64,000 nucleotides of DNA from Actinacidiphila yeochonensis CN732. Its GTDB lineage: Bacteria; Actinomycetota; Actinomycetes; Streptomycetales; Streptomycetaceae. The notes beneath the pieces were generated by a model. The model saw nothing but the letters and a program-made list of their open reading frames with translations. It was not told the DNA's origin and did not search any database. This document shows positions 4,802 through 21,282 of this stretch, in pieces. Within the stretch, counting starts at the first letter, position 1; the number at the start of each line of letters is the position of its first letter. Position numbers and translations under genes: made by a program. The DNA lies in NCBI RefSeq assembly GCF_000745345.1, contig NZ_JQNR01000005.1, positions 4,588,001 to 4,652,000 of the forward strand, read 5' to 3'.

Positions 4802-6844
4802 TCAAGATCCCCGCAAGCGCGGGGACGACACACCGGACCGCGAACGGCCGCGGTGCCGGAGAGGACGACCCCCGCGCGTGCGGGGACGACAACCCCACGC
4901 GCCTTCGCTGAGGCCGGCTACCAGGACCACCCCCGCGCGTGCGGGGACGACGGCGGTCGACGCAGAGCCCGAGGAGATGTTCCAGGACCACCCCCGCGCG
5001 TGCGGGGACGACCAGCACGCCGACTCCGTCGCCGCCGGATGGCAGGGACCACCCCCGCGCGTGCGGGGACGACGGCACCACCCGCACCACCCGCCCCTGC
5101 CCCGGGGGACCACCCCCGCGCGTGCGGGGACGACTAGCCAAACTGGTCAATCTGCAGCTCAGGGAGTGGACCACCCCCGCGCGTGCGGGGACGACTTCAC
5201 GCCGTGCTTGCGGGTCGGGCGGCCCAGCGGACCACCCCCGCGCGTGCGGGGACGACGGTGATGGTCATGTGGGTGATGCTCCTCTCGGGGGACCACCCCC
5301 GCGCGTGCGGGGACGACCGGGGGGTGGTGAGAATGGCGATTCCCGGCAACGGACCACCCCCGCGCGTGCGGGGACGACCAGGTGACGGCCGTGTCGGGGG
5401 TAAGCCAGTGAGGACCACCCCCGCGCGTGCGGGGACGACGCGGCGACCAGCCGCGGCATAGACGTGTCCAGCGGACCACCCCCGCGCGTGCGGGGACGAC
5501 GTGAAACCGGGCGAGAAGGACGCGGTGAAGTCCGGACCACCCCCGCGCGTGCGGGGACGACCAGCGTGCGGATATCCGCACGGGGCGGCGTCGCGGGACC
5601 ACCCCCGCGCGTGCGGGGACGACGCCTGCTTGCGCTCGTCGTCGCCCCACGTGATCGGACCACCCCCGCGCGTGCGGGGACGACCCGGCGTTCTCCGAGT
5701 CCGGAGCGGTCGGCGGGGGACCACCCCCGCGCGTGCGGGGACGACTAGGGGCACCGGTAGGTGTAGCCCTGCACGTACGGACCACCCCCGCGCGTGCGGG
5801 GACGACATGTTCGACCTCGGAGTCATCCGGCACCGCAACGGACCACCCCCGCGCGTGCGGGGACGACCGCGCCGCCGAACTCGACCTGCGAGCCTGGCAC
5901 GGACCACCCCCGCGCGTGCGGGGACGACCTTGAACACGACGTTCTGGTTGTAGTACCCCGCGGACCACCCCCGCGCGTGCGGGGACGACGGTGATGGTCA
6001 TGTGGGTGATGGTCCTCTCGGGGGACCACCCCCGCGCGTGCGGGGACGACGCCGACGTGTTCTTCGCCACCGATCCCGGCGAGGGACCACCCCCGCGCGT
6101 GCGGGGACGACGACGGCGGCACACCTTCCAGACACGAGGGAAGGGGACCACCCCCGCGCGTGCGGGGACGACGTGATGCAGCCCACCGCCCTCCTCCTGG
6201 CCAGCGGACCACCCCCGCGCGTGCGGGGACGACCGCTTCCACGATTTTCGGGTCCACACCCCCGATGGACCACCCCCGCGCGTGCGGGGACGACCGTTCA
6301 ACGCGTCCTGGTCGGGGGCCACCGCCAGGACCACCCCCGCGCGTGCGGGGACGACCGGCATCCCCTCCGTGAGCCTCTACACGGAGGAGGACCACCCCCG
6401 CGCGTGCGGGGACGACCGCGTCGAGCTGCAGCTCGGTTCCCTCCACGGCGGACCACCCCCGCGCGTGCGGGGACGACCGGATCTCGGCGTCGGTGAACTC
6501 CAACACGGTGGGGACCACCCCCGCGCGTGCGGGGACGACTGACGTCATGGCGCCGTGGCGGCGTGGCGTCATGGACCACCCCCGCGCGTGCGGGGACGAC
6601 ACCACGAGCGGCTCTGGAACGCGCTCGACGCGCGGACCACCCCCGCGCGTGCGGGGACGACTACGTCCGGGCCCTGGTCCTCGGGCTCGGGCGAGGACCA
6701 CCCCCGCGCGTGCGGGGACGACGTCCGTGCAGGAAGAGGGGTATCGTGCAACACCGGACCACCCCCGCGCGTGCGGGGACGACACCCGAAGGGACCTCCC
6801 CAGTGAGCATCAGCACGGACCACCCCCGCGCGTGCGGGGACGAC
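4802..6844 (-). CRISPR. CRISPR array 1, type I-E, 34 repeats / 33 spacers
   Basis: Repeats of 28 bases recur every 61 bases (62 twice, at 5534-5596 and 6450-6512), giving 33-base spacers and two of 34. On the minus strand the repeat starts GTCGTCCCCGC and ends GGGGGTGGTCC, the usual type I-E form with a CCCCGC/GCGGGG stem. The repeat at 4863 has one change and the one at 4802 keeps only the hairpin and the last bases, so the low-coordinate end is the old, trailer end. The leader lies at 6845-6892 on the cas3 side, and transcription is leftward. The spacers at 5257-5289 and 5990-6022 differ by one base. The trailer is only 17 bases from the restored stop of the FG-GAP gene. Confidence 0.98.
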
Positions 6845-6892: not shown

Positions 6893-6989
6893 CTGCTTCG
6901 GTGTCATGCTTCCGCGTCCGGGGGCTGTGTCAGTGGTGTCACCTAGGGTCAGGTCCACTGTACGCACGCTGGTTGGGGAGTTGGGGAAC

Positions 6990-9935
6990 GTGGTGGAGGA
7001 ACGGTCGGTCGTCCGGCTCATGCGGTTATGGGGTGTGCCCGAGGAGACGGCCCTGCGGGTGGGGCGGTTGTGGGGGAAGTCGGCTGCGCGCAACGGGGGC
7101 AGGACGCACCTGCTGATCGGTCATCTGCTGGACACAGCTGCGGTGGCCGGAGTGATGTGGGACCGGTACCTGGCGCCGTCGTTCCGGCGGCGGCTGGACG
7201 AGATCAGCGGTGGGCGCGGGCGGGCGTGGCTGATGTGGGTGTGCGGGATCCATGACTGCGGGAAGGCGTGTCCGGCGTTCCAGGCGATGGATCCCGCCGA
7301 GGCGGCGCCGGTGCTGGCGGCCGGGCTGACGTGGGGGCGGTTGGCGGCTGGTCGGGAGAAGCGGTGGCGGCACGACGTCGCGGGTGCGGCGATGCTGCTG
7401 CCGCGGTTGCGTGACGAGTGGGGTGATCCGGAGGCTGCCGCCTGGTTGTGGCCGCTTGTGGCGGGACACCACGGGAGCTATCCGTCCATCCTGGGCCTGG
7501 AACCGCCGCAGCGGGACGCGTTGGGCAGGGGGGCGGCCTGGGCGGAGACGCAGCGTGCGCTGGTGGACGTCTTCACCCGAGCCGTGGGGTTCGAGGATCT
7601 GGCGGCGGCACGGCCGCTCGCGGCGCTGCGCAAGGCGGAGCAGTTGGCGTTGTCGGGCCTGGTCGTGATGGCGGACTGGATCGCGAGTGACAGCGAGCAA
7701 TTCGAGGGGCTGGGCGATGCCGGTGACATCTCACCGGCCGGGTCGTGGCGCCGGGCCGAGGCCGCGTGGCGGCGTCTGGGTCTGCGCGGCGGGTGGGGCG
7801 GGTTGACCGTGCCCGCGTCCGTGCAGGAGCCGTTGCACGGCCGGTTGGGCGTTCGGCCGCGTGCGTCGCAGGTGGAGTTGGTGGAGCGGGCGTGGGCCCT
7901 GCCGGCCCCGGGGCTGCTGGTGGCCGAGGCTCCGATGGGTGAGGGCAAGACGAAGGCGGCCCTCGCGGCGGCCGAGGTGCTGGCGGCCCGCTTCGGCCTG
8001 GACGGCGTGTTCGTGGCGATGCCGACGCAGGCGACGAGCGATCCGATGTACGCGCAGGTGCTGGAGTGGGTGCGGACGTTCGATCCCGCGTTGGAGCCCC
8101 ACGTCGCCCTCCTGCATGGCAAGCGGCGCTTCAACCCGAGATGGCGCGAGATCTGGGAGGCCGGGCGTTCGGCCGGGACGGGCGAAGCCGACGAGGCGCC
8201 GGCGGACCCGTGGGACGTGTACGGCGCGATCGACGAGGACGACGACTTCTTCGGCCCGGGACGCTCCCACAACGCGGTCGAGGAGGCCGGACAGGCCAGA
8301 GAGGCCGCGGAGGGGGAGAACGCGGGTCCGGCCCAGTGGTTCCTGGGCCCCAAGCGGGGCCTGCTCACCGCGTTCGCCGTCGGCACGGTGGACCACCTGC
8401 TGTACGCGGCGACGCGTACCCGACACGTGATGCTGCGGTTCGCCGGGCTGGCGGGGAAGGTCGTGATCGTGGACGAGGTGCACGCCGCCGACGTCTACAT
8501 GCGGCAGTTCCTGCTGGAGGCTCTGCGCTGGCTCGGGCAGGCGGGGGTACCGGTGGTGCTGCTGTCGGCGACGCTGCCGCCCGCGCAACGGCAGGCTTTC
8601 GTCGACGCCTACCTCTCGGGTGCCGTGGGCGCCGCGGACGTGGTGCAGCCGGTGCCCCCGCCGGCCGGCTACCCCTGCGTGACGTCGGCGCATGCGGCGG
8701 AGGGGCGGCCGGTGGCGGAGAGTTCGCGGGTCGCGGTGGCGTCCTGGCGGGAATCGGTGCCGACGCGGATCGCGTGGTTGCCGGACACGTCCAAGGACGG
8801 AGCGGTCGTGGCCGACGCGGTGCGGGACGCGGTGGCGGACGGCGGGGTGGTGCTCGTCGTCGTCAACCAGGTGGACCGCGCGCAGGCGATCCACCGGCGG
8901 CTGGAGCGGGACGGCTTCGACGGGCGGCTGTTCCTGCTGCACGGGCGACTGTGCGCCACCCACCGTGCGGACCGGAGCGCCGAGTGCCTGCGGCTGATGG
9001 GCCCGGAGGCGGGGTCGGAAGGGGCGGACCGGCCCGGGCGCATGGTGGTGATCGCCACCCAGCTCGCGGAGCAGTCCTTCGACGTGGACGCCGACCTCCT
9101 GATCACCGACCTCGCGCCGACGGACCTGCTGCTCCAACGGATCGGCCGGCTGCACCGGCACGCGGGCACGCGGCGTCCCGCGGCTCACGCGACGCCGCGC
9201 GTCCTGGTGACGGGAGTGGCCGCCGACCGGCAGGGGCGTCCCTGCTTTCTCCCCGCCTCGGAGGGGATCTACGGTGCGTGGCCTCTGCTGCGCGCGGCGG
9301 CCCTGGTGGCCGAGGCGGCGGGCCCGCTGCGCCCGGACCGCGGTGTCTCCGGCCGGGAGCCGGCCCCGTGGAGTGTTCCGGCCGACGTTCCGGACCTGGT
9401 GGCCCGCGCCTACGGGGATGCCGAAGTCTGCCCGCCGGAGTGGGACGAGTCCGCGGCTGCCGGCGTCTGGCGCGCCAAGGAGGCCGAACGGCAGAAGAAA
9501 GCGGAGGGGTTCCTGCTGACGCGAGCCCGCGAATGGGGGACGACGACCTTGGAGGGACTGCACTACGGCGGCGTCCGCGTCAGACGGGAGGAGGAACTCG
9601 ACGCCTTGGTACGCGACGGCGAACAGGGGGTCGAGGCCGTGATCGTGCGCCGCGTGCCCACAGGCTATGCGGCCTTCGACGGCACGCGGCTCGGCGTGCA
9701 CGGCGAGGTCCTGGACGAGCCGGTGGTCGAGCGACTGCTCGGCGGATCGGTACGGCTCCCCGTCGGTCTGGCGGAGGAGGCCGGACGGGCGTTGGATCCG
9801 CTTCCGGGCTGGACCGCCCACCCGTGGCTGCGTTACGCCCTGGCGCTGGTTCTGGAGGAGGACGGCTGGGCTCTGGTCGGCAAGGACCGCGTGTCGTACG
9901 ACGACGGGTTGGGACTGGTCGTCGAACGGGGGTGA
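6990..9935 (+). CDS. cas3: CRISPR-associated helicase/nuclease Cas3 (type I-E)
   Basis: Effector nuclease-helicase recruited by Cascade to degrade DNA next to an R-loop. An N-terminal HD nuclease domain shows HLLIGHLLDTAA, GIHDCGKACPAFQ and AGHHGSYP. The SF2 helicase follows with motif I APMGEGKTKAA, Walker B VIVDEVHAAD, motif III LLSATLPPAQ and motif VI QRIGRLHRHAG. The C-terminal domain is present. The frame is open from ATG 6906 (1,009 residues); GTG 6990 (981 residues) is preferred because a GGGGAG lies 9 bases before it and the upstream part overlaps the array leader. A TTA leucine codon (7026-7028) lies near the start. Third positions favour G, unlike the C-favouring cas genes after it. 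Bases 9426-9458 match the first spacer of array 2 exactly. Confidence 0.95.
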   Translation: MVEERSVVRLMRLWGVPEETALRVGRLWGKSAARNGGRTHLLIGHLLDTAAVAGVMWDRYLAPSFRRRLDEISGGRGRAWLMWVCGIHDCGKACPAFQAMDPAEAAPVLAAGLTWGRLAAGREKRWRHDVAGAAMLLPRLRDEWGDPEAAAWLWPLVAGHHGSYPSILGLEPPQRDALGRGAAWAETQRALVDVFTRAVGFEDLAAARPLAALRKAEQLALSGLVVMADWIASDSEQFEGLGDAGDISPAGSWRRAEAAWRRLGLRGGWGGLTVPASVQEPLHGRLGVRPRASQVELVERAWALPAPGLLVAEAPMGEGKTKAALAAAEVLAARFGLDGVFVAMPTQATSDPMYAQVLEWVRTFDPALEPHVALLHGKRRFNPRWREIWEAGRSAGTGEADEAPADPWDVYGAIDEDDDFFGPGRSHNAVEEAGQAREAAEGENAGPAQWFLGPKRGLLTAFAVGTVDHLLYAATRTRHVMLRFAGLAGKVVIVDEVHAADVYMRQFLLEALRWLGQAGVPVVLLSATLPPAQRQAFVDAYLSGAVGAADVVQPVPPPAGYPCVTSAHAAEGRPVAESSRVAVASWRESVPTRIAWLPDTSKDGAVVADAVRDAVADGGVVLVVVNQVDRAQAIHRRLERDGFDGRLFLLHGRLCATHRADRSAECLRLMGPEAGSEGADRPGRMVVIATQLAEQSFDVDADLLITDLAPTDLLLQRIGRLHRHAGTRRPAAHATPRVLVTGVAADRQGRPCFLPASEGIYGAWPLLRAAALVAEAAGPLRPDRGVSGREPAPWSVPADVPDLVARAYGDAEVCPPEWDESAAAGVWRAKEAERQKKAEGFLLTRAREWGTTTLEGLHYGGVRVRREEELDALVRDGEQGVEAVIVRRVPTGYAAFDGTRLGVHGEVLDEPVVERLLGGSVRLPVGLAEEAGRALDPLPGWTAHPWLRYALALVLEEDGWALVGKDRVSYDDGLGLVVERG
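9426..9458 (-). other. protospacer in cas3 matching array 2 spacer 1
   Basis: The 33 bases from GTCTGCCCGC to GTCCGCGGCT are the exact reverse complement of the spacer at 17472-17504. In guide orientation the protospacer lies on the minus strand and is flanked on its 5' side by GGC (complement of 9459-9461), which is not the AAG-like motif known for E. coli type I-E. The encoded peptide VCPPEWDESAA is in the helicase C-terminal part. The crRNA would be complementary to the cas3 mRNA. Confidence 0.95.
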
Positions 9936-9972
9936 GCGCGGGGCGCCGCCACCTCCGCGCGGCGCCGTGCGG

Positions 9973-9996
9973 GCACCCCCGTACCAACGGGGGTGC
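9973..9996 (+). terminator. hairpin after cas3
   Basis: A perfect 10-base stem GCACCCCCGT / ACGGGGGTGC with the loop ACCA lies 37 bases after the cas3 stop. There is no U tract, as is common in Streptomyces. The following 200 bases include an AT-richer island (about 10040-10160) before casA, so casA-cas2 probably has its own promoter; no clear -35/-10 pair could be fixed. Confidence 0.6.
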
Positions 9997-10221
9997 ACAC
10001 CATGCCGTCACGGCACGCCTGGTCACTGAGGTGCGGTTGGCGCCCACAAACGATCGCGCATCGCACATAAATGGCCACAGCTTGAAGTGGCGGCTGGTCA
10101 TATGCAAGAGTGATGAACTGACTGATCTCCTAACTTATGCCGAAAAAGCATGAGTTGGGCTTGTGGAGTGAGGGTCCTCCAGCGGGCCCTGCTCACCTGG
10201 GAAGCGGGAGAGGGAAGCACC

Positions 10222-11901
10222 GTGGAATCGACAGGCGATCTCGTCCAGGGCGGCTGGCTGCCGGCCGTCCGGACGGATGGCGAACTCCGCAGCGCGGGCT
10301 TATGGGAGGTGCTGTCCGAGGCACACGCCGTCCGGCGCATGGACCTGCCGGTGCCCATGATGCTGGCGGCACTGCTGCGACAGCTGCTGCTGCCGGTGAC
10401 GGTGGACGCGCTCGGCGCGCCTCGGACCCGCGCGGAGTGGGGAAGGCGGTTCGCTCAGGGGCGGTTCTCCCCGGAGGAGGTCGAGCGGCTCGCCGACTAC
10501 CTCGGCCCTCGCTACGGCAGCCGTTTCCGGCTCCTCGACGCCGAGCGGCCGTTCGCGCAAGTGGGCGGGCTGACGGCGCTCAGCGGCGACGCCAAGCCGT
10601 CCACGCTGCTTGTCCCGTCGATCGCCTCGGGCAACAACGTGCCCCTGTTCAGCGCGCTCAGCGAGGCCGACCACCTCGACCTGACCCTGCCCCAGGCGGC
10701 GTTGTGGCTGTTGCACGCGCACTGCTGGGACACCGCCGCGATCAAGACCGGAGCTGTCGGCGACGGGCAGGCGAAAGCCGGCAAGACGACGGGAAACCCG
10801 ACGGGACCACTGGGCCAGCTCGGCGTGATCGTTCCCACGGGCAGCACGCTGTACGAGACGCTGCTCCTCAACACCCCGGTCGTGCCCGACGGGCTCGACC
10901 CGGCCGACCGTCCCCAGTGGGCGTGGGACGAGCGCCCCGCGACGGCCGGTTGGAGGGCGCCGTCAGGGCCCGAGTGGTCCGCGCGGAACGTCGGCGGCCT
11001 CCTGGACCTTCTGACCTTCCAGTCCCGCCGAATCCGGCTGATCTGCACCGAGACCGAAGAGGGCCCGCGCGTGCGGGAGGTGGTCGTCTGCGCGGGGGAC
11101 CGCCTCACGGAGACGCCGCAGGTCGAGCCGCACACGGCGTGGAACCACACGGCCAAGCCCAAGGCGGGCCAGCCACGGCACCGACCCCGCCGCCACTTCT
11201 CCGGGCGCGCCGCCTGGCAGGGCCTCGACGCCCTCCTCGCGCTCGCCCTCCCCGAGGACAGCGACGGCCCCTTCACCTCCCTGCTGCTGCGTCAGATCGG
11301 GGCCCTGCACAGTGAGGGCCACCTGCCGGCCGGCTACCCGCTCGGAGTGGAGACCAGCGGGCTGGAGTACGGAAACCAGTCAGCCGTGGTGGAGAACGCC
11401 ATCACCGACAGCCTCCCCCTCCCGGTCGCGGCCCTCACCGCCACCGACCCCTGGCTGCGGAGAGCGCTGCTCGACTGTGTCGAGCAGGCCGATCGGGTCG
11501 GTCGCGCGCTGGACATGCTCAACAGCGATCTTCGGCGCGCGTCCGGCGGGGACCCGCTGCCCCGCAACAGCGGCGACCGCCCCTCGGCCCGCTTCCTGCA
11601 CGCCGTGGACGCCAGTATGCGGCGCCTGCTGGCCGGACTGAGCACCGTCGGCGACGACGACCTGCTGGAACGTGCCCGACTGGCCTGGGAGCTGACCTTG
11701 CGCCAGGCCGCGGTCGCGGAAGCCGACAGCCTGGTGGCGGCCACCCCCGCCCGAGCGGTGATCGGCCGGAAGGTGAGAGTGAACGGCAAGGAGACGGTCT
11801 TCCGCAGCGGCAGGGCCGGCGCGGCCTTCCACGGTGCCCTGCGCCAGATCCTGGCCAGAGTCGCCGAAGCCCGTTCCGCACGAGGGGACGACGCCGCGTG
11901 A
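10222..11901 (+). CDS. casA: Cascade large subunit CasA/Cse1 (Cas8e)
   Basis: Large subunit of type I-E Cascade, which reads the PAM and recruits Cas3. The protein has about 559 residues. Family landmarks are GGWLPAVRTDGELRSAGLWEVLSEAHAVRRM near the start, the helix DLPVPMMLAALLRQLLLPV, and later HCWDTAAIKTG, GPLGQLGVIVPTGSTLYETLLLNTP and AWQGLDALLAL, followed by an alpha-helical C-terminal bundle. GTG 10222 is chosen: GAGAGGGAAG lies just upstream and the conserved block begins within 10 residues, whereas the longer frame from 10150 adds an unrelated 24 residues. Codon 27 is TTA (10300-10302), rare in Streptomyces. The stop overlaps the casB start as GTGA. Confidence 0.93.
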   Translation: MESTGDLVQGGWLPAVRTDGELRSAGLWEVLSEAHAVRRMDLPVPMMLAALLRQLLLPVTVDALGAPRTRAEWGRRFAQGRFSPEEVERLADYLGPRYGSRFRLLDAERPFAQVGGLTALSGDAKPSTLLVPSIASGNNVPLFSALSEADHLDLTLPQAALWLLHAHCWDTAAIKTGAVGDGQAKAGKTTGNPTGPLGQLGVIVPTGSTLYETLLLNTPVVPDGLDPADRPQWAWDERPATAGWRAPSGPEWSARNVGGLLDLLTFQSRRIRLICTETEEGPRVREVVVCAGDRLTETPQVEPHTAWNHTAKPKAGQPRHRPRRHFSGRAAWQGLDALLALALPEDSDGPFTSLLLRQIGALHSEGHLPAGYPLGVETSGLEYGNQSAVVENAITDSLPLPVAALTATDPWLRRALLDCVEQADRVGRALDMLNSDLRRASGGDPLPRNSGDRPSARFLHAVDASMRRLLAGLSTVGDDDLLERARLAWELTLRQAAVAEADSLVAATPARAVIGRKVRVNGKETVFRSGRAGAAFHGALRQILARVAEARSARGDDAA

Positions 11902-13070
11902 ACACCACGACCACCACGACTGGCCGGTCCTACCGGCCCTACTTCTGGGACGAGTTCACCTCCGCCCCCGCCCCCCGCGGGGACGGAGGCCAGTCACTCC
12001 CGGCCTGGGCCGAAAGGGGCCTGCGCAGCCTGCGGGACGGTCTGGGCCGCGAGCCGGGAAGCGTGCCCTCCATGCGGCAACTTCACCGGGTGCGACCGAC
12101 CGACGCGGACCGGAACGCCGATCGGCTTCCGGCGTCGTACCGCGCCGAGCACGCCGTGCTCACCCTCTTCGGCCTCCACCAGACCGGCGCCGCCCATTCG
12201 GCGCACCGGCCGGGGGTCGGACTCGGGACCGCGTGCCGGGGCCTGCGCGGCTCGCTCTCCGAGGCCGCGGTCCGACGGCGCCTGGCCGCCGCGGCCACCG
12301 CGCAGGACCTCGACGAACTGGTGCAGCACCTGCGGGGAATCGTCCCCCTGCTGCGACAGGCCGACACCGGCCTGGACTACACCCGCCTGTACCGCGACCT
12401 GTGCGACTGGCTGACGCCCCGGCACACCAAGGTGCTGCGCGCCTGGGGCCTGCAGTACACCGACCCGACCGGCGCCCCGGCCGAGACCCGCGCGGACGGC
12501 CCGCAGGGTGCGAAGCCCCGCACCGCGGACCAGCCCCTCTGGGCCACCTTCGACCCGAAGAGCGGCAGCGCGGGCGCCGACCTGGCGGCGCTGCGATCCG
12601 GTCTCGGCGCCGAGGCCGGCACCGTACCGGCGATGTGGCGGTTCTACCGCACGAGCCTGTCCACGGAGCTGCGGGCCAAGGGCGCTCTCACCCGCGACCT
12701 GGTGGCCGAGCACACCGCCCTCGCCCTCTTCGGGGTGCACCAGCACGGCAGGCGCGTACCGATGCACACGCACGGAGTCAGCCCCGGTGCCGCCTGCCAC
12801 CGGCTCCTCGCGAGAGACGGCCAGGCGGACCGCACCGCGATCGAGCGCCGGCTCGGCGTCCTGCTGACCTCCCTGGACGGCGAGGAACTGGCCCACCACC
12901 TGCGCGGGCTGGTCACCCTGCTGCGGGCGAAGGACATCGGGCTCGACTACGACGCCCTGCGACGGGCGCTGCGGCACTGGGACGACTCCGAGGGAGCCGA
13001 GGAGCAGTCCCGCATCCGAAGCCGGTGGGACCGCGACTTCCGCGTCGGCGACGCGCCCCCGCGCGACTGA
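11898..13070 (+). CDS. casB: Cascade small subunit CasB/Cse2, tandem-duplicated
   Basis: The small Cascade subunit Cse2 is normally 160-220 residues and two copies line the crRNA-DNA hybrid. Here one chain of 390 residues holds two Cse2 domains, about 37-172 and 226-362, joined by a linker of roughly 50 residues. Matching blocks are GLGREPGSVPSMRQLHR / GLGAEAGTVPAMWRFYR, AEHAVLTLFGLHQTG / AEHTALALFGVHQHG, LVQHLRGIVPLLRQADTGLDY / LAHHLRGLVTLLRAKDIGLDY. The second copy is followed by the usual C-terminal WDRDF. The gene starts with GTG at 11898 inside the casA stop (GTGA). It appears intact, so it probably works as a covalent dimer. It could also be an evolutionary intermediate in which one half is redundant. 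Confidence 0.93.
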   Translation: MNTTTTTTGRSYRPYFWDEFTSAPAPRGDGGQSLPAWAERGLRSLRDGLGREPGSVPSMRQLHRVRPTDADRNADRLPASYRAEHAVLTLFGLHQTGAAHSAHRPGVGLGTACRGLRGSLSEAAVRRRLAAAATAQDLDELVQHLRGIVPLLRQADTGLDYTRLYRDLCDWLTPRHTKVLRAWGLQYTDPTGAPAETRADGPQGAKPRTADQPLWATFDPKSGSAGADLAALRSGLGAEAGTVPAMWRFYRTSLSTELRAKGALTRDLVAEHTALALFGVHQHGRRVPMHTHGVSPGAACHRLLARDGQADRTAIERRLGVLLTSLDGEELAHHLRGLVTLLRAKDIGLDYDALRRALRHWDDSEGAEEQSRIRSRWDRDFRVGDAPPRD

Positions 13071-15271
<2,201 letters not shown>

Positions 15272-15277
15272 CACCGA

Positions 15278-16054
15278 ATGCCGTACCTGTCGAAGATCGC
15301 CCTCAACCCCGGCCGCCGCGGCGGCCTCGCCCTCCTGTCCAACCCCCACCGGCTGCACGCCGCCGTCCTGAACGGCCTCGCCGAACAGCCCGTACGCGAA
15401 CGCGTCCTGTGGCGTGTGGAGAGCGACACCCCCCACCGCACGGACGTCCTCGTCCTCACCGAGAGCCGCCCGTCCTGGCATCGGCTGGTCGAAGACGCCG
15501 GCTGGCCCGGTGCCGACGGCGGCGACCCGCTCATCGCCGACTACACGCCCTTGCTGGAACGCCTCGTAACCGGACGGGAGTTCGCCTTCCGTCTGACCGC
15601 CAACCCGGTCCACAGCGTCCAACGCCCCGAACGGCCCAGCGCCGAGCAGACGCAGCGTATGAAGGCCGACACGGACGCCCCGGAACGCCGTCGCGGATTC
15701 CGTGTCGCGCACCGCACCGCCGCTCAGCAACTCGACTGGCTCCTCGGCCGCGCCGAGCGCAACGGCTTCACGATCCCCCTTACCGAAACCGCCCCCGGCA
15801 TCGACCTCGGCACCAGCACCCCCACCAGCGAAGCCCCTGCCGTCTCCCTGGTCGCCCGCGACATCCTGCGCTTCCGCAAGCACCGGAACGGCCCGCACGT
15901 CACCATCTCCAGCGCCACGTTCCAGGGCAGACTGCGCGTCACCGACGCCAACGCCCTGCGCGAGGCCCTGCTCAGTGGCATCGGCCCCGCCAAGGGCTAC
16001 GGCCAGGGCCTTCTCACCCTCGCGCCCCTGCCCGGGGAGGCCGCACGTGGCTGA
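15278..16054 (+). CDS. casE: CRISPR endoribonuclease CasE (Cas6e)
   Basis: Endoribonuclease that cuts the CRISPR transcript at the base of each repeat hairpin and stays bound to the 3' handle. The protein has about 258 residues with two ferredoxin-like folds. It shows the start YLSKIALNPGRRGG, the helix with the likely catalytic histidine in NPHRLHAAVLNGL, and the C-terminal glycine-rich loop SGIGPAKGYGQGLLTLAP. It starts 7 bases after the casD stop and its own stop lies inside cas1. It must process two repeat types that share the stem CCCCGC/GCGGGG but differ in the loop and outer bases. Confidence 0.93.
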   Translation: MPYLSKIALNPGRRGGLALLSNPHRLHAAVLNGLAEQPVRERVLWRVESDTPHRTDVLVLTESRPSWHRLVEDAGWPGADGGDPLIADYTPLLERLVTGREFAFRLTANPVHSVQRPERPSAEQTQRMKADTDAPERRRGFRVAHRTAAQQLDWLLGRAERNGFTIPLTETAPGIDLGTSTPTSEAPAVSLVARDILRFRKHRNGPHVTISSATFQGRLRVTDANALREALLSGIGPAKGYGQGLLTLAPLPGEAARG

Positions 16055-17075
16055 ACCCTGGTGGCGCACCGGCCCGCAGGACGTGCACAGGCTGGAGGAC
16101 CGCGTCTCCAGCCTGTACGTCGAGCGGTGCCACATCGACCGGGACGACAACGCCATCGTCCTCATCAACAAGGCCCGTGTCGTCCACGTCCCCGCGGCCT
16201 TCCTCGCCGTGCTCCTCGTCGGACCCGGCAGCCGGATCACGCACGCCGCCGTCACCCTCCTCGCCGACTCCGCCACCGCGATCTGCTGGGTCGGCGAGCA
16301 CGGCGTACGCCTGTACGCGTCCGGCCTCGGCACCACCCGGAGTGCCCAGCTCCAACTACGGCAGGCGTGGCTCGTCACCCGCCCCAAGGAACGGGTCGCG
16401 GTCGCCCGCCGCATGTACGACCTGCGCTTCCCCGGAGAGAAGACCGCCGGACTGACCCTCCAGCAACTCCGCGGCAGAGAAGGCACCCGCATCCGCAAGC
16501 TCTACGCTGCACACGCCGCGCGCACCGGCGTCCCCTGGTCCAAACGGGAGTACAAGGCCGGCGACGCCTTCGCCGCAGGCGACGACGTCAACCGCCTGCT
16601 GTCGGCGGCCAACTCCGCGCTCTACGGCATCTGCCACGCCGTCATCGCCGGCATCGGCGCCAGCCCGGCCCTCGGCTTCGTCCACACCGGCTCCGCCCTG
16701 TCCTTCGTCCTGGACGTCGCCGACCTGTACAAGGCCGAGTTCACCATCCCGCTCGCCTTCGACTTGGCAGCCCAGGGCCTGACCGCCGAACGCGACGCCC
16801 GCACCGCCCTGCGCGACGCCGTCGTCCAGGGCTCACTCCTGCCCCGCGTCGTCGCCGACATCAAGCAACTCCTCGTCCCCGAGGGCGCGGACCTCCCGGA
16901 GGAGGAAGCCGGCGGACTCTGGGGCGACGGCGACACGGTTGTCAGCGGCGGCCGCAACTGGGGCGAAGCCTTTGCCCCGGGCGAGCACCTCACGGTGATT
17001 CCGCCCCAGCCGGAGCCCCAGCAGTCCCCACCGGAGGCGGAAGGCGCCGGCCCGGAACAGGACCGGCAACGGTGA
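16047..17075 (+). CDS. cas1: CRISPR integrase Cas1 (type I-E)
   Basis: Metal-dependent integrase of the spacer-acquisition complex Cas1-Cas2. About 342 residues. N-terminal beta domain (LYVERCHIDRDDNAIVLIN, VPAAFLAVLLVGPGSRITHAA) and C-terminal helical domain with NRLLSAANSALYGICHAVIAGIGASPALGFVHTGSALSFVLDVADLYKAEFTIPLAFDLA, which holds the catalytic Glu, His and Asp residues (N-S-A-L-Y, G-F-V-H-T-G, D-V-A-D-L-Y-K). A Pro/Glu-rich tail follows. GTG 16047 lies inside casE, an 8-base overlap. The gene appears intact, so adaptation could continue even if casD is broken. Confidence 0.95.
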   Translation: MAEPWWRTGPQDVHRLEDRVSSLYVERCHIDRDDNAIVLINKARVVHVPAAFLAVLLVGPGSRITHAAVTLLADSATAICWVGEHGVRLYASGLGTTRSAQLQLRQAWLVTRPKERVAVARRMYDLRFPGEKTAGLTLQQLRGREGTRIRKLYAAHAARTGVPWSKREYKAGDAFAAGDDVNRLLSAANSALYGICHAVIAGIGASPALGFVHTGSALSFVLDVADLYKAEFTIPLAFDLAAQGLTAERDARTALRDAVVQGSLLPRVVADIKQLLVPEGADLPEEEAGGLWGDGDTVVSGGRNWGEAFAPGEHLTVIPPQPEPQQSPPEAEGAGPEQDRQR

Positions 17076-17413
17076 GCGCCGCAACAACCGTCGTCGTACT
17101 GATCGCCGCTCCACCCGGCCTGCGAGGCCACCTCACGCGGTGGTTCGCCGAAGTAGCCCCCGGGGTCTTCGTGGGCACCCCCAACTCCCGCATCCGCGAC
17201 CGCCTCTGGACCATCCTGGCCGAACGCATCCGTGACGGCCAGGCCGTGATGGTCGAACCCGCCCCCACCGAACAAGGCTGGACCGTCCGCACAGCGGGCC
17301 GAGACCGCTGGACGCCCGTCGACTTCGACGGCCTCACCCTGATGGCCCGCCCCCGGGGTAGCTCAGCGGCACCGGGCTGGCAGCCGACGCGGCAAGTGAA
17401 GGAAAACCCGTGA
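17072..17413 (+). CDS. cas2: CRISPR adaptation protein Cas2e
   Basis: Structural partner of Cas1 in spacer integration. About 113 residues, with the type I-E hallmarks VVVLIAAPPGLRGHLTRWFAEVAPGVFVG, a basic helix after it and RDRLWTILAERI. GTG 17072 overlaps the cas1 stop (GTGA). The last six codons (GTGAAGGAAAACCCGTGA) are also the outer end of the array 2 leader, so coding sequence and leader overlap. Confidence 0.93.
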   Translation: MSAATTVVVLIAAPPGLRGHLTRWFAEVAPGVFVGTPNSRIRDRLWTILAERIRDGQAVMVEPAPTEQGWTVRTAGRDRWTPVDFDGLTLMARPRGSSAAPGWQPTRQVKENP

Positions 17414-17443
17414 TCCCCGGGACATCAGCCCAGCTCACGAAGT
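17396..17443 (+). promoter_or_regulatory. CRISPR array 2 leader, overlapping the cas2 3' end
   Basis: The 48 bases before the first repeat start GTGAAGGAAAACC and end CACGAAGT, matching the array 1 leader in length and at both ends. The first 18 bases are the last codons and stop of cas2, leaving only 30 bases of non-coding leader. The array may be transcribed from the cas operon or from a promoter within cas2. Confidence 0.75.
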
Positions 17444-17963
17444 GTCCTCCCCGCGCCCGCGGGGGTAGTCCAGCCGCGGACTCGTCCCACTCCGGCGGGC
17501 AGACGTCCTCCCCGCGCCCGCGGGGGTAGTCCCCGCCCCTGTAGCGGGCACGAACCACCCCCCGAGTCCTCCCCGCGCCCGCGGGGGTAGTCCTCGGGGT
17601 GCTGCTGCTGGCCGATTTGCATGAGCGTCCTCCCCGCGCCCGCGGGGGTAGTCCCGCCGGTACAGTGGGGACCGCTGAGCCCACCTGGGTCCTCCCCGCG
17701 CCCGCGGGGGTAGCCCGATGATCAGGAGGTCCGTACTGGTCGGCTCCGGGGTCCTCCCCGCGCCCGCGGGGGTAGCCCGGTGGACCCCAGGTAGACGACG
17801 CTCGGGCCGCGGTCCTCCCCGCGCCCGCGGGGGTAGCCCATCGAACCCTGTACCGGGGGTGGCAGCAGTGCCCGTCCTCCCCGCGCCCGCGGGGGTAGCC
17901 CGTCCTACGGGCACCAGACGGTCAAGACGGTGACCCTCCTCCCCGCGCCCGCGTGGGTAGCTC
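17444..17963 (+). CRISPR. CRISPR array 2, type I-E, 9 repeats / 8 spacers
   Basis: Repeats of 28 bases start at 17444, 17505, 17566, 17627, 17689, 17751, 17812, 17874 and 17936. They begin GTCCTCCCCGC and end GGGGGTAGTCC or GGGGGTAGCCC. Compared with array 1 four positions differ, all outside the CCCCGC/GCGGGG stem. Repeats 1-4 end TAGTCC and 5-8 end TAGCCC; repeat 9 is degenerate (GCGTGGGTAG). The leader is thus on the left next to cas2. Spacers are 33 or 34 bases. Spacer 1 (17472-17504) matches cas3 of this locus exactly. Confidence 0.97.
17472..17504 (+). other. self-targeting spacer against cas3
   Basis: First (leader-proximal, most recent) spacer of array 2. It begins AGCCGCGGAC and ends CGGGCAGAC and is the reverse complement of cas3 bases 9426-9458 over all 33 positions. 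Confidence 0.95.
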
Positions 17964-18091: not shown

Positions 18092-19771
18092 TTAGTCGCC
18101 TCCGCCTCCGGAGCCGCCACCGGAGCCGCCGCCGTCACCTCCGCCGGAGCCCCCGCCGTCGCCGCCGCTGCCTGAGCCGCCGTCTCCGCTGCCGCCGCCG
18201 TACCCGCCGGAGCCGTCACCGCCTCCGCCGTAACCACCGTCGCCTCCGCCGTAACCGCCGTAGCCGCTGTCGCCGCCGTAACCTCCGTCGGAGGAGCCGC
18301 CGTACCCGCTGTCACCCCCGCCGTAGCCGTCGCCTCCGCCGTAGCTGCCGTCGGAGGAGCCGCCGTCGTCGCCGGAAGCCGCGGCGCTGCCGTCATCGCC
18401 CGAGTCCGACGCGGCGGCCGAGTCCGTGCCGTCGTCGCCGGGTGCGGACGCGGCGGCCGCATCCCCTGCTGGGGCTGCCGGGGCTGCGGGGGCCGCCGGA
18501 GCGGAATCCGCAGGGGCTGCCGGGGCGGAATCCGCCGGGGCTGCCGGGGCTGCCGGGGCTGCCGGGGCGGCGGCAGGAGCCGCGTCGTCTGCGGCAGCGG
18601 GAGCCGCCGCAGCGGGTGCGGCCGGTGCGGCCGGTGCTGCGGGGGCCGCCGGTGCTGCGGGAGCCACCGGTGCCGCCGGTGCCGCGGGGGCCGACGCGGT
18701 CGTGCTCGTGGTGGTCGCGCCCCAGGGCGAACCCAGCATCGCGCCCGGCGTGCCGGCGATCGACCCGCTGTAGGCGCTCGCGGAGACGCTGGTCCCGGGC
18801 GGCCCGGAGATGCTCGCGGGAGCGGCGCCGGGCGCCTGTGCCGTGGCGGTTCCGCCGTCGGGAGCCGAGGCGGTCGCCGAGGAGACGCCGCCGAGCGGGC
18901 CGCCGATGCCGGTCGAGGTGGCCGAGGTCGGTCCGGAGCTGCTGGTGGCGGACGCCTGTGCGTTGCTGCCGCCGGCTTCGCTGCCGGCCGCGGACGAACC
19001 GGCCGCGGAGGTGCTCGCCGACGCGCCGGTCGCGCCGATACCGGCCTTGGCGGCGCTGCCGAGCGGCCCCGAGGCCGCGCTCGCGGAGGTGTCGCCGCCC
19101 GGGCTGGAGGCCGCCGCCGAGGAGGAGACGGCGCCGGAGTCCGCGTTGGCGCCGGAGAACCCGCCGCCCTTGGTGCTCGCGGAGGAAGCGGCGCCGGCCT
19201 GGCTGGAGCCGCTGGTCGCGTTGGCGCCCTGGCCGCCGCCGTAGGCGTCGGATGAGGCGGTGCCCTTGCTGGTGGACGCGTTGGAGTCGGCGCCGGAGCC
19301 GCTCCCGGTCGCGGTGGCGTCTCCGACCGAGAGGCCGCCGCCGGGACCGGCCTTGGCGGCGCCCGCGCCGGCCGAGTTCGTACCGCTGCCGTACGCGTCG
19401 GCACCCGCGCCGGTCTTCCCGTCTCCGACGCTCGCGCCGGCGGCGGCCGGGGCGCCATGGGAGCTGTTCCCGTAGGTCGCCCCGAGTCCTATCGCGCCGG
19501 ACTCCGGCCCCGAGCCGTTGCCGCTCCGGCCGGCCTGCCCGCTGCTGTCGCTGCCGTACGAGCCCGCCCGTGCCCCGCCGTTCGCACCCGGCGGATCCGC
19601 GAGGGCGCCCCCGGTCAGGTGCAGGACGCTCAGCACCGACGTCGCGGTCAGGATCGACGCCGTGCGCAGCGCGCGCCCCTTTCGGCCTCCCCCCGTACGG
19701 TCCGCCGGCCGGCCCGTACGGGTCACCGGAGGTCGGGCGCCATCCTCCGGTGACGACTCTTCTGCTGCCAT
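18092..19771 (-). CDS. secreted low-complexity Gly/Ala/Ser/Pro-rich protein
   Basis: I do not recognise a family. The 559-residue product has a charged N-terminus, a hydrophobic export segment (LRTASILTATSVLSVLHLTGGALA, about residues 36-58), then four low-complexity blocks. First come Gly/Ser/Ala/Asn repeats (SYGSDSSGQAG, GANATSGSSQAGAASSA), then a Thr/Ser/Ala stretch, then an AAPAAPAAP run of roughly 80 residues with DSAPAAPADSAPAAP, and last a C-terminus of GYGGGDG/GSGGGDG repeats. This layout resembles structural or wall-associated proteins rather than enzymes. ATG 19771 has GAAAGGAAG upstream. The composition would make any wrong frame look open, but the signal segment and ribosome site support this one. 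Confidence 0.6.
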   Translation of the reverse strand: MAAEESSPEDGARPPVTRTGRPADRTGGGRKGRALRTASILTATSVLSVLHLTGGALADPPGANGGARAGSYGSDSSGQAGRSGNGSGPESGAIGLGATYGNSSHGAPAAAGASVGDGKTGAGADAYGSGTNSAGAGAAKAGPGGGLSVGDATATGSGSGADSNASTSKGTASSDAYGGGQGANATSGSSQAGAASSASTKGGGFSGANADSGAVSSSAAASSPGGDTSASAASGPLGSAAKAGIGATGASASTSAAGSSAAGSEAGGSNAQASATSSSGPTSATSTGIGGPLGGVSSATASAPDGGTATAQAPGAAPASISGPPGTSVSASAYSGSIAGTPGAMLGSPWGATTTSTTASAPAAPAAPVAPAAPAAPAAPAAPAAPAAAAPAAADDAAPAAAPAAPAAPAAPADSAPAAPADSAPAAPAAPAAPAGDAAAASAPGDDGTDSAAASDSGDDGSAAASGDDGGSSDGSYGGGDGYGGGDSGYGGSSDGGYGGDSGYGGYGGGDGGYGGGGDGSGGYGGGSGDGGSGSGGDGGGSGGGDGGGSGGGSGGGGD

Positions 19772-19790
19772 GCGCGGCTTCCTTTCAACG

Positions 19791-19845
19791 ACACGTTCCT
19801 GGCACGTTCCTGACGCGTTTTTGACGTGTTCCCGGCGTGTTTCCC
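19791..19845. repeat. 11-base degenerate tandem repeats
   Basis: About five imperfect units (CACGTTCCTGG, CACGTTCCTGA, CGCGTTTTTGA, CGTGTTCCCGG, CGTGTTTCCCC) lie directly upstream of the low-complexity protein gene and may be regulatory sites or slippage products. Confidence 0.5.
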
Positions 19846-19967
19846 CGCCCGTTCCACAGGCCGCTCCTCGTACCGACTGCACCAGCAGCACCGGTGTCCT
19901 CGGTGGTGTCGGCCGCACCGACACCTTCGCGTACCGCCTTCCCGTTGGGCAAGGGCTCACGCGCGGA

Positions 19968-20014
19968 CCGCGCCCCGTACCCGCGCCGGTGGTAGGGGCG
20001 GGTACGGGGCGCGG
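19968..20014. terminator. 17-base-pair hairpin
   Basis: CCGCGCCCCGTACCCGC (19968-19984) pairs perfectly with GCGGGTACGGGGCGCGG (19998-20014) over a 13-base loop. It lies between the IS110 right end and the low-complexity gene, so it would stop leftward transcription leaving the element. Confidence 0.6.
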
Positions 20015-20073
20015 AGGTGGGGCCGACGCCGTCGGGGGGGGTGCCTCTATGTCTTTCGTCAAGTTTGGGGTGG

Positions 20074-21282
20074 TCATGCGGTGGCTGCATCGGATTGGGG
20101 TGGGTCGTAGAAGGTTCCGTCGCGGAGCATGGCGAACAGGACGCTGATGCGGTGGCGGGCGAGTCGGAGGAGGGCTTGGGTGTGGGTTTTGCCGCGGGTC
20201 CGGCATTTGTCGTAGTAGGTGCGGGAGGCGGGGTCGTGGAGGGCGGCGAAGGCGGAGAGGAACATCGCGCGTTTGAGCTGGCGGTTCCCGCTTCTGGGGG
20301 CGTGCTCGCCGTGGATCGAGGTTCCGGAGGATCTGGTCGCTGGTGCCAGGCCGGCGTAGGAGGCGAGGTGGGCGGCGCTCGGGAAGGATCTGCCGTCGCC
20401 GACGGTGACCAGGAGGACTGCGGCGGTCCTGACGCCGACGCCGGGCAGTGACGTCAGGACCTGGGAAAGAGGGTGGGCCTCCAGGAGTTCGCTGATCTGG
20501 GCTTCCAGGGCTCGGCGTTGCTCGTGGACGGCCGCGAGGGAGCGGGCCAGGGACGGGACGACGATGTCAAGGGTGCCGGTGCCGGGGACGGTGACGGTCT
20601 GTTCGTCGAGGGCGTCGAAGATGTCGTCGATGAGTCGGGTGGCCATGCGGGGGGCCTTGGGGCGGATCAGTTCGACGAGCTTGCGGCGGCCGGCTGTGCG
20701 TAGGGCGGTCGGGGATCCGTGGCGTTCCAGGAGCCAGGTGACGGCCTGGTGGTCCAGACGCGGGCCCAGGACGCGTTCGAGGCTGGGGTGGAACTGGGTG
20801 AGCAGGCCGCGTATCCGGTTGGAGGTGCGGGTGGCCTCTGCTGCGAGGTCCTGGTCGAAGCCGATGAGGACGGTGAGTTCGGCGGTGATCTCGTCGGTGA
20901 GTTCCAGCGAGCGCAGGGTGTGGGGCATGGTGCGGGCGGCGTCTGCGATCACTGCGGCGTCTTTGGCGTCGGTCTTGGCCTCGCCCGGGTAGAGGTCGGC
21001 GATCCGGCGCATGGCAAGGCCCGGCAGGTAGGCGACCCGGCAGCCCGCGTCGCGGGCCACGGCCAGTGGCAGGGCGCCGATCGAGGCGGGCTGGTCCACG
21101 ACCACCAGCACGGTGCCGAACTTCGCCGCGAGCTTGCCGAAGACCGCCCGCAGCTTCGGTTCGCTGTTGGGCAGCTGCTTGTCGAAGACCGTCTTGCCGG
21201 TCGGCGTCAGGCCGTGCCCGTGGTGGGTGCTCTTGCCGACGTCCAGTCCGAGGAAGACGCCCACACCGCTTGTGTCGATCAC
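20074..21282 (-). CDS. IS110-family transposase (DEDD and Tnp_20 domains)
   Basis: Recombinase of about 402 residues. The N-terminal RuvC-like DEDD domain begins FLGLDVGKSTHHGHG and includes VVVDQPASIGALPLAVAR and GEAKTDAKDAAVIAD. The C-terminal Tnp_20 domain shows LTSLPGVGVRTAAVLLVTVGD, LASYAGLAPATRSSGTS and the conserved serine segment APRSGNRQLKRAMFLSAFAAL. Length and motifs are complete, so it may be active. GTG 21282 is preferred to the upstream ATG 21339, which adds an unrelated 19 residues. IS110 recombinases use a bridge RNA from the element end to choose target and donor. Confidence 0.9.
   Translation of the reverse strand: MIDTSGVGVFLGLDVGKSTHHGHGLTPTGKTVFDKQLPNSEPKLRAVFGKLAAKFGTVLVVVDQPASIGALPLAVARDAGCRVAYLPGLAMRRIADLYPGEAKTDAKDAAVIADAARTMPHTLRSLELTDEITAELTVLIGFDQDLAAEATRTSNRIRGLLTQFHPSLERVLGPRLDHQAVTWLLERHGSPTALRTAGRRKLVELIRPKAPRMATRLIDDIFDALDEQTVTVPGTGTLDIVVPSLARSLAAVHEQRRALEAQISELLEAHPLSQVLTSLPGVGVRTAAVLLVTVGDGRSFPSAAHLASYAGLAPATRSSGTSIHGEHAPRSGNRQLKRAMFLSAFAALHDPASRTYYDKCRTRGKTHTQALLRLARHRISVLFAMLRDGTFYDPPQSDAATA

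Follow-up and report, generated by a model that had tools for sequence, protein, structure and literature searches.

Here, we describe a spacer in Actinacidiphila yeochonensis CN732 that matches the cas3 gene of its own type I-E CRISPR locus over its entire length of 33 nt. The spacer next to the leader of array 2 (spacer 1) is the reverse complement of a segment of cas3. On the crRNA side of the match, the PAM is absent, while an AAG stands at the other end, where its G pairs with the terminal C of the spacer; this detail had been missed in an earlier, sequence-only reading of the region. We consider it likely that spacer 1 was acquired by accident from the cell's own cas3, was integrated backwards and is not acted on by Cascade.

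The window, i.e., the whole 64,000-nt stretch analyzed, has all eight type I-E genes in the order cas3-cse1-cse2-cas7-cas5-cas6-cas1-cas2 between array 1 and array 2, with repeat-spacer units of about 28/33 nt (Table 1). Downstream of the frame-broken cas5 (casD), cas6, cas1 and cas2 gave profile scores above the cut-offs.

Table 1. Features of the type I-E locus, with positions counted from the first base of the window.
Feature	Positions	Strand	Remarks
CRISPR array 1	4802..6844	-	33 repeats and a degenerate one, 33 spacers; repeat GTCGTCCCCGCACGCGCGGGGGTGGTCC
cas3	6906..9935	+	HD, helicase and C-terminal domain matches
AAG at the "wrong" end of the cas3 match	9424..9426	+	context GCCGAAGTCTGCC; 9426 pairs with the last base of spacer 1
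cas3 segment matched by spacer 1	9426..9458	- (protospacer strand of the crRNA)	codons about 841-851 of 1009
Flank in crRNA orientation	9459..9461	-	GGC (PAM = GCA with the first base of the spacer), not AAN
cse1 (casA)	10150..11901	+	
cse2 (casB)	11898..13070	+	two Cse2 domains fused in tandem
cas7 (casC)	13246..14478	+	
cas5 (casD)	14475..15271	+	frame broken at C run 14933-14938; limits counted by eye from frame translations
cas6 (casE)	15278..16054	+	
cas1e	16080..17075	+	profile match from 16080, start approximate
cas2e	17075..17413	+	profile match within ORF 16061-17413
Leader end of array 2	17414..17443	+	CACGAAGT adjoining the first repeat, likewise in array 1
First repeat of array 2	17444..17471	+	GTCCTCCCCGCGCCCGCGGGGGTAGTCC; predicted 7-bp hairpin
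CRISPR array 2	17444..17963	+	9 repeats (last degenerate), 8 spacers
Spacer 1 of array 2	17472..17504	+	leader-proximal, 33 nt, antisense to cas3; 33/33 reverse complement of 9426-9458

The two domains of Cse2 are 43% identical to each other over 133 aa. A double Cse2 was present in 29 of the 39 other entries listed (with some genomes represented twice), which all belong to loci close in type to that of the window, and the fused protein would represent a covalently joined pair of the two Cse2 subunits of Cascade. Among the repeats of array 2 between 17444 and 17901, repeats 1 to 4 end in GTCC and repeats 5 to 8 in GCCC, perhaps because the first repeat changed and later units were copied from it. 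In array 1, spacers 26 (5257-5289) and 14 (5990-6022) lie 12 units apart and differ at one base, and the same target or a variant of it was apparently acquired twice; the pair had no exact match in viral contigs, and its matches in phages were weak (mycobacterial prophage holins, 25/29, E 0.3). The DNA beside array 2 (18093-18690) is repeat-rich and of low complexity and lies within a 704-aa minus-strand ORF (18092-20206).

Several lines of evidence support the match between spacer 1 and cas3. First, the identity claimed in the sequence-only reading is complete, and the whole-genome alignment proposed there, when run with up to 3 mismatches, placed the 33-mer in array 2 and in cas3 and nowhere else in the 7.8-Mb genome. 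Spacer 1 is, therefore, a self-targeting spacer with a perfect match to its own chromosome outside the arrays. Second, that a match of this kind cannot be due to chance is borne out by the other 40 spacers of the window, none of which exceeds 24 identities to the rest of the window, arrays excluded. In a BLAST search of the own genome with both arrays, there was no other comparable match outside CRISPR repeats among the first-look candidates scored (40 of 330 and 40 of 115). Third, a chimera of the assembly is unlikely, as the match stops at the repeat borders save for flanking bases common to the repeat and cas3; with these bases included, it spans 37 nt at 97% in the own-genome BLAST. Fourth, spacer 1 should be the most recent spacer of array 2, as previously proposed, because the leader lies to its left, the repeats have the I-E orientation and the degenerate repeat (17936-17963) closes the array on the right. 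The bases that immediately precede the first repeat, CACGAAGT, are found again at the leader end of array 1 (84% over 49 nt when the repeat is counted in), and this homology together with the repeat orientation and the degenerate terminal repeat rules out that array 2 was read in the wrong orientation.

The flanks of the cas3 match differ in a telling manner. On the coding strand, the matched segment begins with GTCTGCC and ends with GCGGCT, and is preceded by GCCGAA and followed by GCCGGC. For the crRNA of spacer 1, the right end is the one relevant to interference. Here, the flank had been given as GGC and judged not to be AAG-like; the latter stands, but GGC comprises the three bases before the 33-mer. 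Because the repeat is 28 nt, the first base (A) of the 33-nt unit corresponds to position -1 in the numbering used for Escherichia coli and Streptomyces avermitilis, and the PAM in crRNA orientation is GCA; neither triplet fits AAG or AAN. At the far end, by contrast, the spacer strand reads CTT, composed of the last spacer base C and a TT beyond it. Of the 3028 positions of the cas3 coding strand, 17 have AAG and 15 have CTT; the chance of an AAG exactly at the far end is about 0.6%, and at either end about 1.1%. Because the -1 base in the clade is not always G (see the base counts below), it may be that only AA should be counted as the motif at the far end; with 35 AA dinucleotides in cas3, the chance is still about 1%.

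This configuration has a counterpart in the type I-E system of S. avermitilis, in which AAG is described upstream of all but four protospacers (PMC4762764, Qiu et al. 2016). The four exceptions are reported to have TT downstream and C (T) as the spacer end, and are explained by inverse insertion of the 33-bp fragment; they come from a set of 69 new spacers, 67 of which aligned to plasmids (PMC4762764). A review gives the effective PAM of this system as AAN (PMC12231136). The PAM of the system studied here is inferred from S. avermitilis and from the base counts in the clade. A search for native protospacers yielded none: when four spacers out of the other 40 were compared to the phage collection, two had no match and two had weak matches only, and of the four patterns run against viral contigs, neither the one whole spacer pair nor the three 25-nt cores gave a match.

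The base that follows the repeat in related loci provides an independent view of the PAM. We sampled 885 distinct spacers from related loci with a cas3 >65% identical to that of the window, choosing units by repeat pattern (three loci gave none). The first base after the 28-nt repeat is C in 46%, G in 39%, T in 12% and A in 2% (18 spacers; 2.0%), compared to 14.7% A inside the spacers and 9.6 to 21.5% A at the eight other positions listed. Thus, the position after the repeat carries a footprint of the PAM that avoids A. C is the last base in 11 of the 18 A-first spacers versus 304 of the 867 others (one-sided Fisher P 0.023), an excess that would be expected if some of them were flipped AAG fragments. 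The cas3 spacer is of this A...C type, and its first base departs from the usual PAM-derived base. However, A follows the repeat in 5 of the 41 spacers in the window, more often than in the relatives (18 of 885; P 0.0025), and of these five, two end in A, two in C and one in G. The surplus may reflect more frequent flipping or a looser, less strict PAM in this strain, and is a mild argument against holding the rules of the relatives to be binding here.

Altogether, these findings favor a scenario in which Cas1-Cas2 captured a fragment of the resident cas3 that started at AAG, as in normal type I-E adaptation, and in which this fragment then entered array 2 in reverse orientation. The crRNA of spacer 1 would pair perfectly with cas3, but the side read as PAM has GCA instead of AAN and would not be functional; Cascade should then not license cleavage by Cas3 at this site, and the cell would survive. 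The same fragment in normal orientation is expected to be lethal and, therefore, the surviving lineage would be the one carrying the flip. The guide would now have little or no effect. The resident cas3 is the simplest source of spacer 1. From its matched segment, it is 2.6 kb to array 1 and 8 kb to array 2; in E. coli, the chromosomal hotspots of acquisition are reported to include a region upstream of CRISPR-1 (PMC10011333).

One argument against this explanation comes from casD. The gene reads in one frame up to SLGRRSCPP and then in another, and its C run (window sequence TGCCCCCCGCC) has one base fewer than in relatives, while the frame is kept in all 27 other entries listed (some genomes twice). 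With casD broken, tolerance of spacer 1 needs no explanation by the PAM: Cascade would be missing, a self spacer would be neutral and its orientation would be accidental. A genome search gave a single other Cas5 match, which is fused to Cas3 in a type I-B-like system, and revealed neither a further type I-E cas3 nor a further type I-E cas5. Nevertheless, we regard tolerance mainly through casD inactivation as unlikely. The missing base in the C run may stem from a mutation, possibly a later one, or from an error in sequencing or assembly. Had interference been off at the time of capture, direct insertion would mostly be expected, since inverse insertion is described for only four protospacers in S. 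avermitilis, there in plasmid-targeting cells (PMC4762764). The flip that is observed, thus, favors a system that was active at capture, as far as the rates in S. avermitilis can be applied here. Moreover, only 1 of the 41 spacers is a known self match. Of the earlier proposal that accidental self-acquisition was tolerated because of the PAM or because of a broken casD, the PAM branch is supported and made more precise by the AAG at the wrong end; the frameshift of casD is confirmed but may be an error of the assembly or a later event.

The type I-B-like system (own genome, contig C5:2797000-2816000) is a second CRISPR system with 55 repeats of another type. A single 1043-aa fusion protein combines its Cas5 and Cas3 and is encoded on the minus strand at 7775-10906 of this locus (L142) beside Cas7/Cst2 and Cas1b; this protein accounts for the only other Cas3_HD and Cas5 matches in the genome. 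Four further arrays with I-E-like repeats lie away from the I-E cas genes, at about 238200-239200 on contig C4 and at about 1298690-1299010, 1685860-1686620 and 2167600-2167870 on C5; they could be served by the same Cascade.

Alternatively, spacer 1 could have been taken from a plasmid or a phage, as was also raised in the sequence-only reading, or from an incoming chromosome, with a nearly identical type I-E cas3. Spacers of this kind do exist among the relatives, in which we found two clear cases directed against type I-E cas DNA of other strains. In genome G191, the spacer with index 33 of 37 in array 1 (15163-15195 of locus L150) targets the ribosome-binding site and start of cas7; it matches Streptomyces marokkonensis, Streptomyces minutiscleroticus and Streptomyces paradoxus (L003, L011 and L017) at 31/33 each, with AAG (L003, L017) or AAA (L011) on the crRNA side. 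Compared by eye, the start of G191's own cas7 deviates at about 10 of the 33 positions, and this spacer would, judged from these matches, be an anti-cas spacer in a strain with its own I-E system. In genome G160 (L162), the spacer with index 11 of 12 in array 0 matches the cas3-cse1 gap just upstream of cse1 in Streptomyces sp. CB02056 (L029) at 29/33, with no AAG at either end of the target; around the end of its own cas3 it reaches 18 at best, and its own gap gives no match.

For spacer 1 itself, the evidence points away from such an origin, which we consider improbable. Its identity to the resident cas3 is perfect, while the closest other cas3 at this site, that of Streptomyces sp. MspMP-M5 (L013), reaches 29/33 without AAG at the relevant end. 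Among the 30 entries listed of 108 (window included, some genomes twice), AAG is present at the site in one other cas3 (L168), which matches at only 21/33. Neither the 50,697 phage nor the 72,556 plasmid records gave a convincing match (best E about 1 and 0.3, respectively; the best 20 of 70 phage matches). An 18-nt match to a plasmid-borne cas2 of Streptomyces californicus (H31) concerns a type I-C cas2 and, at E about 3, was taken as chance. The proposal of a foreign cas3 is, therefore, not supported.

We also asked how common spacers against cas genes are. In 100 related loci with arrays (4067 spacers, some genomes included twice), there was no match to the own cas region comparable to that of spacer 1; five entries with at least 26 identities represent three distinct cases (27/40, 26/33 and 26/32), which we take as chance. 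When 3791 distinct spacers, including the 41 of the window, were compared to the cas regions of 108 loci, 8 had a score (matches minus mismatches) of at least 22 versus 0 for reversed spacers. The limits of these cas regions came from a query set with cas5 and cas2 in the wrong frame, while the entries for the cas3 site used cas3 alone. The flanking DNA gave 13 matches (reversed, 3) in 0.73 Mb versus the 8 in 1.03 Mb of cas DNA and, thus, spacers are not enriched against cas operons.

A further possibility is that the flipped spacer was kept and not just tolerated, its antisense guide with a dead PAM allowing Cascade or the pre-crRNA to dampen cas3 and in that way to act as a throttle on the cell's own nuclease. 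We find this reading, in which one flipping error both makes the guide non-lethal and creates the throttle, very improbable. The broader proposal of a retained guide that lowers cas3 expression, by a Cascade roadblock or by pairing with the mRNA, seems exceedingly improbable: the guide is indeed complementary to the cas3 mRNA over 33 nt, as had been pointed out, it should be well transcribed next to the leader, and type I effectors are reported to regulate genes with altered guides (PMC10989794), but the target lies far into the cas3 reading frame, at codons about 841-851 of 1009, the PAM is absent on the side where it is needed, no comparable own-cas match occurs in the 100 related loci, and a natural example, scaRNA, is described as using a partial match (PMC6990116), unlike the full 33-nt match of spacer 1. 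Beyond antisense polarity, nothing positive speaks for this proposal, and a regulatory role of spacer 1 is possible but unsupported.

Self-acquisition from cas3 followed by reverse integration would make spacer 1 a natural example in which the orientation of integration alone can explain survival after a piece of the cell's own CRISPR nuclease gene has been stored. If so, self-targeting spacers in public genomes could be sorted by whether the PAM is missing or stands at the correct or the wrong end, and if wrong-end PAMs turned out to be in excess among tolerated self-spacers, flipping would be shown to be a main route of surviving autoimmune capture. The base counts in the clade, in which A is nearly absent after the repeat and A-first spacers tend to end in C, suggest an inexpensive search for flipped spacers even where the protospacer is not known.

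Self-targeting spacers, inverse insertion and spacers matching cas genes are each already in print; limited word and phrase searches of the literature gave no report of a spacer directed at the cas3 of its own system. Self-targeting spacers, reported in a third of 75 Salinispora strains (PMC4223832), share with spacer 1 a perfect match to the own chromosome (PMC6990116). Spacer 1 differs from them in that it targets the nuclease gene of the same system and has the AAG at the opposite end. The anti-cas spacers in orphan I-F arrays of E. coli likewise match cas genes; they are described in strains that lack the targeted cas genes and as acting on incoming ones (PMC8616872, PMC5972030, describing Almendros et al. 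2016), whereas the target of spacer 1 is resident and its flank non-permissive. In the scaRNA of Francisella and in a haloarchaeal RNA resembling a crRNA, as here, a CRISPR-related RNA pairs with a resident gene. The haloarchaeal RNA reportedly acts at a promoter by partial pairing. Pairing is also described as partial for scaRNA (PMC6990116), while the match of spacer 1 is complete and inside the gene. The closest likeness is to the inverse insertions of S. avermitilis, with which spacer 1 shares the lack of an upstream AAG, the downstream TT, the last base C, the 33-bp fragment and a base other than G after the repeat (PMC4762764). There, the fragments came from target plasmids; here, the source would be the system's own cas3, and the array is that of a natural genome.
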